Source: Roseinatronobacter ekhonensis (GTDB lineage Bacteria; Pseudomonadota; Alphaproteobacteria; Rhodobacterales; Rhodobacteraceae). Taken from it: 64,000 nucleotides of DNA. Below, in pieces: positions 34,046 to 42,467 of this stretch (its first letter is position 1; every line of letters begins with the position of its first letter). The DNA lies in NCBI RefSeq assembly GCF_900499075.1, contig NZ_UIHC01000005.1:1-64000 (forward strand), read 5' to 3'. The notes under the pieces are model-generated. The model was given only the letters and a program-made list of their open reading frames with translations. It searched no databases and was not told the DNA's origin. A program made the position numbers and the translations under genes.

Positions 34046-34357
34046 TCAGTGGGTCCAGACCTGCCGCCGCGAGGTTGCGAAATTCTCTGCATAGCCCGCC
34101 GGACGAATATTCGGACGGCGCGTCTTGGGTTCAACCACGGTGTAGTCGATGCCATGGGCATTGGCATAGGCTTCGGCGCTCTCTCGGTCTTCAAAGCGCA
34201 GCGTGACCTGACTGTCCATATCGTCGGAACTGGTCCAGCCCATCAATGGATCAATCTTGCGCGCCTGCGACGGCGCAAAGGCCAGAACCCAGTGTTTGCT
34301 CTTGGCCGTGCCAGACTGCATGGCGTTTCGGGCGGGGCGGTAAATTCTTGCGCGCAT
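34046..34357 (-). CDS. NADH dehydrogenase accessory subunit, NDUFS4-like (ETC complex I subunit)
   Basis: A 103-residue protein of the alphaproteobacterial/mitochondrial NDUFS4 (18-kDa, AQDQ) family, an accessory subunit on the matrix arm of complex I. Hallmarks are [34 protein letters not shown], then [21 protein letters not shown] and the final [15 protein letters not shown]. It lies outside any nuo operon, which is usual. It sits downstream of the candidate sRNA at 34430-34514. Confidence 0.95.
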
Positions 34358-34429
34358 AGTGTGACCCTATCTCAAGCTGGCCCTGTTATCGTGGCAATAG
34401 CCCGATTTGGCAAGCCCGCACGACTGCGC

Positions 34430-34514
34430 AAAAACAGGTACAGGCAGGAAGCCCCCGCTGAAAGGAGGGAACGAGGAGTAAGTCTTCCGAGACAGGGTAA
34501 CATCCTGCCTGCAC
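34430..34514 (-). ncRNA. Candidate small RNA with CU-rich anti-Shine-Dalgarno region
   Basis: The predicted ~85-nt transcript begins near 34514, about 6 nt after a -10 box, and ends in a T-run at 34434-34430. A perfect 9-bp stem (34511-34503 with 34449-34441, cores CAGGCAGGA/TCCTGCCTG) closes the whole molecule. Inside are a small GTCT-CGGA-AGAC hairpin and an unpaired CU-rich stretch around 34481-34458 that contains TCCTCG and CCCTCC, complementary to Shine-Dalgarno sequences. No peptide is encoded. The layout resembles the CU-rich/anti-SD regulatory RNAs of alphaproteobacteria, but I do not recognise a named family. It might instead be processed from the end of the ABC-transporter transcript. 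Confidence 0.5.
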
Positions 34515-34519
34515 GGTTC

Positions 34520-34548
34520 AAGCTAGGGGCAGATCGAGGCGCGGGCAA
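34520..34548 (-). promoter_or_regulatory. Predicted promoter of the candidate small RNA
   Basis: TTGCCC, 17 bp, TAGCTT on the minus strand, located between the ABC-ATPase stop (34573) and the RNA candidate. The transcript start fits the first base of the closing stem. Confidence 0.45.
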
Positions 34549-34572
34549 CAAAAATGTAACAAGGATACATGT

Positions 34573-42393: not shown

Positions 42394-42467
42394 TGGAGCG
42401 GGTAGCGGGAATCGAACCCGCACTTCAGGCTTGGGAAGCCGGCGCGCTACCACTACACCATACCCGC
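42394..42467 (-). tRNA. tRNA-Gly (anticodon CCC)
   Basis: A 74-nt cloverleaf including an encoded CCA end. The acceptor stem GCGGGTA/TACCCGC is perfect. The D-loop contains AGTGGTAG. The anticodon loop TTCCCAA gives CCC at positions 34-36. The T-arm has GGTTCGATTCC. One mismatch lies in the anticodon stem. It reads GGG codons. A promoter-like element lies just upstream. Confidence 0.95.

Follow-up and report, generated by a model that had tools for sequence, protein, structure and literature searches.

A conserved hairpin RNA upstream of NDUFS4 in Roseinatronobacter and related Rhodobacteraceae, probably a small RNA gene with a pairing loop

According to the excerpts available of the cited reports, NfeR1/alpha-r14 and the cuckoo RNAs, which include CcsR1-4, display an ultraconserved pyrimidine loop motif resembling an anti-Shine-Dalgarno sequence on variable stems (PMC10746234, PMC10253847). 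The most conserved part of GsrN from Caulobacter is a C-rich loop that pairs with G-rich mRNA sites, and this RNA is under stress sigma factor control; the excerpt mentions matches in Caulobacteraceae and proposed homologues in Rhizobiaceae, typically near ecfG-nepR-phyR genes (PMC5869019). The interaction region of PmaR from Agrobacterium is described, in the portion of the report available, as consisting mainly of cytosines, with most target sites located away from ribosome-binding sites (PMC6234868). The HRC-8-4 motif is presented in its source, also available in part, as a hairpin with a conserved tip found in Rhodobacterales only (PMC8632094). Finally, StsR (RSs0827) of R. sphaeroides is reported, in the accessible parts of two papers, to be a 72-nt orphan sRNA that is controlled by RpoHI/RpoHII and acts on UpsM (PMC8307010, PMC8625941).

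We analyzed a stretch of 64,000 nucleotides from Roseinatronobacter ekhonensis (contig NZ_UIHC01000005.1), designated the window. A sequence-only reading had proposed a minus-strand small RNA gene of about 85 nt in this DNA, between an ABC-transporter gene and a complex I subunit gene. The location was correct, the upstream and downstream neighbors being an oligopeptide ABC ATPase gene and NDUFS4, respectively, and the minus strand does carry a hairpin element at this place (approximately 34512-34435), with a size of ca. 75-85 nt that agrees with the proposal. The fold of the minus strand had an energy of -36.2 kcal/mol (z -3.92), which was equaled by 0/200 dinucleotide shuffles, whereas the plus-strand fold was weaker (z -2.08; equaled by 9/200 shuffles). 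The closing stem (P1) and the internal hairpin (P2) had been read as 9 and 4 bp; both were recovered, with lengths of 12 bp and 5 bp (GGAAG/CUUUC) in the minimum-energy fold. The CU-rich unpaired stretch is an apical loop of 19 nt containing UCCUCG and CCCUC in the window copy, and the CCCTCC motif previously attributed to it extends one base into the inner stem. Positions of all features are given in Table 1. At the gathering threshold, Rfam provided no match to the element, with only chance-like matches below threshold, in agreement with the initial statement that no named family was recognized. The sole Rfam match in the window at this threshold was a tRNA; a tRNA search of the window yielded a single gene, tRNA-Gly (CCC) (42394-42467, minus strand). 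No repeat-like partners of the element were detected within the window.

Table 1. Positions of the proposed small RNA gene, its parts and neighboring features in the window.
Feature	Position	Strand	Basis
Proposed small RNA gene	34430..34512	-	Putative 5' end G34512, placed from the promoter; conserved to ~34437
Closing stem P1, 5' arm	34503..34514	-	Minimum-energy fold; 12 bp; compensatory changes at 6/12 pairs, 30 genomes
Closing stem P1, 3' arm	34438..34449	-	Minimum-energy fold; covariation
Inner stem P2, 5' arm GGAAG	34484..34488	-	Fold; 5 bp, nested inside P1
Inner stem P2, 3' arm CUUUC	34460..34464	-	Fold
Apical loop, 19 nt, ACUUACUCCUCGUUCCCUC, proposed pairing region	34465..34483	-	Unpaired in fold; 1.83 bits/column, 30 genomes
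T-run 3' of stem	34430..34434	-	This genome only; 1/31 genus copies
-35 element TTGCCC	34543..34548	-	T at -35 in 31/31, C at -32 in 29/31 genus copies
-10 element TAGCTT	34520..34525	-	C-14, T-13 and A-12 each in 25/31, T-9 in 27/31 genus copies
Inverted repeat ATGTA-N7-TACAT, possible operator	34554..34570	-	Read by eye; six Roseibaca-like-clade copies
NDUFS4 gene	34046..34357	-	PF04800, E 2.4e-36; constant downstream neighbor in genus
Separate promoter-like pair of NDUFS4, TTGCCA-N17-GATAAC	34385..34413	-	Read by eye

The element was found by DNA search at the same place in 30/36 genomes of the genus, that of the window included. An exact 20-nt core was present at 24 loci, including those of Roseibaca domitiana, Roseibaca sp. 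Y0-43 and Natronohydrobacter thiooxidans, and records from metagenome-assembled genomes labelled Natronohydrobacter, Rhodobacteraceae or Alphaproteobacteria. A covariance model (R1) was built on an alignment of 30 genus copies (A1). R1 matched 31 of the 37 genus genomes, own included, at E <= 4.1e-13 (30 of these 31 are in the model), and one further genome at E 0.19. The window copy, itself part of the model, was matched at 34433-34514 (E 6.8e-14). NDUFS4 was found in 34/37 genus genomes, 31 of which carry the RNA; a targeted look at the three others (L107, L108 and L120) revealed no convincing copy. Upstream of NDUFS4 in L120 (G018), a stretch ending in CTTTTCTGCCTGCGCCC resembles by eye a degenerate 3' half of the RNA, a resemblance for which the covariance model gives no support.

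Paired cells accounted for 97.5% of A1, and 29 cells were changed on both sides, versus 7.1 +- 2.1 in shuffled alignments (0/500 as high) and at most 12 when the structure was slid. The six pairs carrying compensatory changes, against 3.8 in shuffles (19/500 as high), all belong to P1. In P2, 96.2% of the cells were paired and no pair was changed on both sides among the 30 genomes; support for this stem comes from the fold and from one-sided changes, and RNAalifold favors another inner pairing. The loop was nearly invariant (1.83 bits/column versus 0.52 for the linker inside P1). G.U cells outnumbered C.A cells (73 versus 4 in the genus, 66 versus 4 in the wider family described below), indicating the minus strand for the RNA. 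Comparison of genomes thus supports a conserved structured RNA and the strand assigned to it by the sequence-only reading. Since stem and loop are both conserved, the loss of conservation in relatives that this reading had considered fatal to its proposal was not observed. An RNA from the plus strand was rejected on the basis of the weaker fold and of the large excess of G.U over C.A cells, and a coding gene was rejected since ATG was present in just 11/30 copies and A1 has single-base gaps. A role at the DNA level, as a G-quadruplex or i-motif involving the four C-tracts of the family loop, was set aside since the window genus is devoid of these tracts.

The minus-strand promoter-like pair indicated by the sequence-only reading was also present, with TTG at 34548-34546 and TAGCTT at 34525-34520 separated by a 17-nt spacer, and was kept in the 31 genus copies compared. 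Positions were numbered with G34512 as +1. The lower counts of T-36 (23/31) and G-34 (20/31) result from a spacing shift of one base in some copies. TTG at -36 to -34 and A-12 are features of both RpoHI and RpoHII promoters, C-14 and T-13 being described for RpoHII and T-9 for RpoHI, in the part of the source available (PMC3441632). The conserved promoter bases of the element agree with this Rhodobacter description, although recognition by the main sigma factor is also possible; a scan for generic sigma-70 promoters and terminators returned none of either at the element. In the wider family, the pattern TTG-N16-19-TANNNT was found in 21/38 copies, versus 0.87 in simple shuffles. By eye, the inverted repeat just upstream of the -35 element is present in the window and in the L002-L005 and L083 upstream regions, the remaining genus members having different, at times palindromic, sequences at this position. 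A CACAACYTTAAGG-like box, also read by eye, recurs upstream of family promoters (L205, L210, L218, L204, L150 and others), ca. 58 nt before the RNA start. At the other end of the element, the predicted T-run is present at 34434-34430, but its occurrence in 1/31 genus copies and 3/38 family copies indicates that no intrinsic terminator is conserved. The T-run is thus no conserved part of the RNA.

The RNA has relatives beyond the genus. The region upstream of NDUFS4 was inspected at 28 loci of other genera, and a C-rich loop motif was present in 18 and absent in 10. Alignment A2, comprising 15 of these 18 regions (without L125, L128 and L140), provided a second covariance model (R2), which matched 122/295 Rhodobacteraceae genomes at E <= 0.01, corresponding to about 4 of 10 sampled genera; G000, G028 and G096 are outside these 122 genomes. 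Run with strict filters on a sample of the class, R2 matched 0/240 genomes, at least three of which are Rhodobacteraceae. The position of NDUFS4 was listed for 71 of the 122 genomes, and the element was upstream and on the same strand in 70/71, within 300 nt at 68/71 listed places (median 102 nt). Covariation was assessed on a set of 38, made up of the 15 members of A2 and 23 additional strong matches. All of the 15 pairs displayed compensatory changes in this set, for which the alignment was fitted to the model, and 129 cells were changed on both sides, versus 42.1 +- 4.7 in shuffled alignments and at most 16 when the structure was slid.

The two branches differ in the loop, which reads CUCCUCG, CCCUCCUUUC, in the genus form and is C-rich (CACCACCCACCCCACCCCUCGCUCCC) in the rest of the family. 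The label of anti-Shine-Dalgarno loop given by the sequence-only reading suits the former and less the latter. Applied without filters to 27 other-genus loci, R1 placed family elements on the right strand at six of its first seven places, the seventh being the antisense of a family element (E 1.5e-4 to 0.3), and recovered 10/15 A2 elements at E <= 5; a rough estimate of the probability of this recovery by chance is 7e-12. L091, from another genus (G096), has an intermediate loop and was matched by R1 at E 1e-9; below the Rfam threshold, RF00926 scored 37.9 bits on this locus, versus a cut-off of 90. The only other R1 matches outside the genus, G332 (E 0.028) and G307 (E 0.28), were not near NDUFS4. 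In the opposite direction, R2 was applied to the window, to five loci of the genus and to L091. One of these seven sources was matched below E 0.01 (L016, 0.006; L091, 0.048; L020, 0.19); with reporting to E 10, there was no match to L001, L002, L083 or the window copy. By comparison of the two models, we take the genus RNA and the C-rich-loop branch to be one family in which the window form is divergent: the window element has a C/U-rich loop-core hairpin upstream of NDUFS4 and matches R1, and the recovery of A2 elements by R1, together with L091, relates it to the R2 branch.

Comparison with the systems introduced above was limited to their partial sources. Like the cuckoo and alpha-r14 RNAs, the NDUFS4-linked RNA combines a conserved pyrimidine loop with a varying stem. 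Alpha-r14 is described as having three hairpins with identical CCUCCUCCC, whereas the NDUFS4-linked RNA has one hairpin and no exact CCUCCUCCC. Membership of the cuckoo/alpha-r14 group was rejected on the basis of this single hairpin, of the sequence CUCCUCGUUCCCUCC read in A1 and of the lack of an Rfam match. The CcsR RNAs, four in number, are described behind a DUF1127 gene, in contrast to a single gene by NDUFS4. The window's genome contains no second copy at E 1 or better in the R1 search, and the neighbors of the sole match are NDUFS4 and an ABC ATPase gene; membership of CcsR was also rejected. GsrN is similar by description in its conserved C-rich loop and stress sigma factor control, but is typically encoded near general stress regulators, in contrast to NDUFS4 in Rhodobacteraceae. 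PmaR, again compared by description, has a similar C-rich interaction region and comes from another order. HRC-8-4 shares the hairpin with a conserved tip, but its partial source places it between cco operons and describes its end as an intrinsic terminator. No description of the NDUFS4-linked RNA was found in the literature searched, in which an earlier entry in a supplementary table is possible, and the family is apparently unnamed.

The combination of a freely changing stem, a fixed loop and its own promoter, together with the analogues NfeR1, GsrN and PmaR as far as their sources describe them, makes a pairing sRNA the most likely reading. We consider with fair confidence that the element is a single-copy minus-strand small RNA gene, with its own promoter and a loop that pairs with other RNAs, forming the genus branch of the Rhodobacteraceae C-rich-loop family. 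Transcription, the sigma factor and action in trans by pairing are what we infer from the sequences compared. The RNA, a putative stress-type sRNA, would be transcribed from its own minus-strand promoter, probably by the heat-shock type sigma factors RpoHI/RpoHII, and would fold as one long irregular hairpin holding the 19-nt CU-rich loop open. The loop would most likely base-pair with other RNAs at purine- or G-rich stretches and thereby alter their translation or stability.

It is quite conceivable, if somewhat short of probable, that the family has already been named, the NDUFS4-linked RNA being this genus's form of StsR, an identity compatible with the pairing sRNA favored above. As reported in the partial sources, StsR is a 72-nt RNA of Rhodobacteraceae encoded by an orphan gene under RpoHI/RpoHII control (PMC8307010, PMC8625941); this description suits the NDUFS4-linked RNA in its size, its orphan gene and its probable promoter type. 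In seven other genera, the best loop duplex involved GGGACGAGGG, immediately before the UpsM terminator, with p values of 0.02-0.14 each versus dinucleotide shuffles for sites that are homologous and hence not independent. In contrast, this UpsM-leader site is missing in the window genus, G096 and G203. The loop-UpsM duplex was no better than shuffled in six window-genus genomes (p 0.54-0.91), the p values were 0.26-0.72 in the remaining five genera tested, and two cruder tests of pairing with the UpsM/dcw leader were negative. The UpsM-like leader (L155, the mraZ leader of the window genome; L153-L171) has a hairpin that likewise carries a C-rich loop, and the G-rich stretch preceding its terminator varies by genus (GGGACGAGGG, GGGACAGGG, GGGACAGTCGG and others).

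Anti-Shine-Dalgarno action at gene starts did not gain support from scans of complements. For a 14-mer complement of the loop with at most one mismatch, there were 9 non-self matches in 37 genomes versus 18 for the reversed control, and a 10-mer complement located no more than 9 nt from an ATG gave 11 versus 14; neither is an excess. Gene starts shared in the latter scan (one by L228 and L229, another by L232 and L236) were too few to matter. Four of the nine 14-mer matches correspond to one orthologous site (GGAGGGAATGAGGAG; L245-L248 from G023, G008, G025 and G031, respectively) in the 3' UTR of ndk, identified by PF00334 in the three long frames. This site lies 9-22 nt past the stop codon, just before a terminator-like hairpin, and complements the RNA loop over 15 bp with one G.U (-31 to -33 kcal/mol). 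The RNA is present in three of the four genomes, the incomplete assembly of G023 having a weak R1 match only. The best long complement found was thus a 3' UTR site rather than a ribosome-binding site. For a 12-mer complement of the family loop, 22 perfect non-self matches were obtained in 40 genomes versus 20 for the reversed control, which tells little since it is nearly the same motif. Nine of the 22 coincide with the 5' arm of a hairpin, GGGAGCGAGGGG/CCCCTCGCGCTCCC, that resembles a terminator, carries a T-rich tail and recurs in other Rhodobacteraceae genera (L255, L261-L263, L265, L268 and L271-L273); it was not found in the window. We regard the ndk, recurring-hairpin and UpsM sites beside terminators as a lead and not as a result, G-rich sequence being common there. 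The UpsM terminator in seven genera, the hairpin arm in 9/22 matches and, in four genomes of the genus, the 3' UTR of ndk form the basis of a bolder and doubtful proposal: a Rhodobacteraceae-wide, RpoH-driven sRNA may pair beside or inside terminators and couple stress to termination or 3'-end stability, its loop acquiring new targets from genus to genus while the locus stays the same.

Loop conservation beyond the needs of short seeds, together with the lack of an excess of complements, would also suit an RNA whose loop binds a protein, with a sponge or scaffold function like that of 6S or Csr-type RNAs. This is unlikely, since the loop shifts from C-rich to CU-rich between genera and no protein partner is known.

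The proximity of NDUFS4 raises the possibility that the hairpin belongs to a cis-acting leader of its mRNA, the upstream promoter reading through the hairpin and the loop acting on the NDUFS4 ribosome-binding site. NDUFS4 was present at 31/31 genus loci (one cut by a contig end), a short distance away and in the same orientation, as at the 68/71 family places within 300 nt, and a conserved terminator is absent between the two. In contrast, NDUFS4 has a separate promoter-like pair in between, which was also seen by eye where the RNA is absent (L107, L108 and L120). In L238, a TauE/SafE-type gene (PF01925) on the same strand stands between the element and NDUFS4, indicating that the element is a gene independent of NDUFS4. 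In L237, a weaker family-like hairpin (R2 E 0.003) lies beside a GARS gene, and NDUFS4 was not found in the 3.1 kb around it. We therefore hold the leader to be quite improbable, although read-through into NDUFS4 may occur at loci other than L238. That the hairpin arose by chance, terminates the upstream ABC operon or is a repeat can practically be dismissed: the element does follow a same-strand operon and its window copy carries a T-run, but covariation refutes these readings, the loop is conserved, the T-run occurs in 1/31 copies, the genome contains one match, and NDUFS4 is constant while the upstream gene changes, the orthologous ABC gene adjoining 6/31 genus copies only (L001-L005 and L083).

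To our knowledge, the number of small RNAs described in this abundant marine and soda-lake family is low. A structured RNA with a freely changing stem and a near-fixed loop provides a model for searches and lends itself to a clean loop-swap experiment, and the change of the loop between genera at a single locus would allow target switching by an sRNA to be tested.
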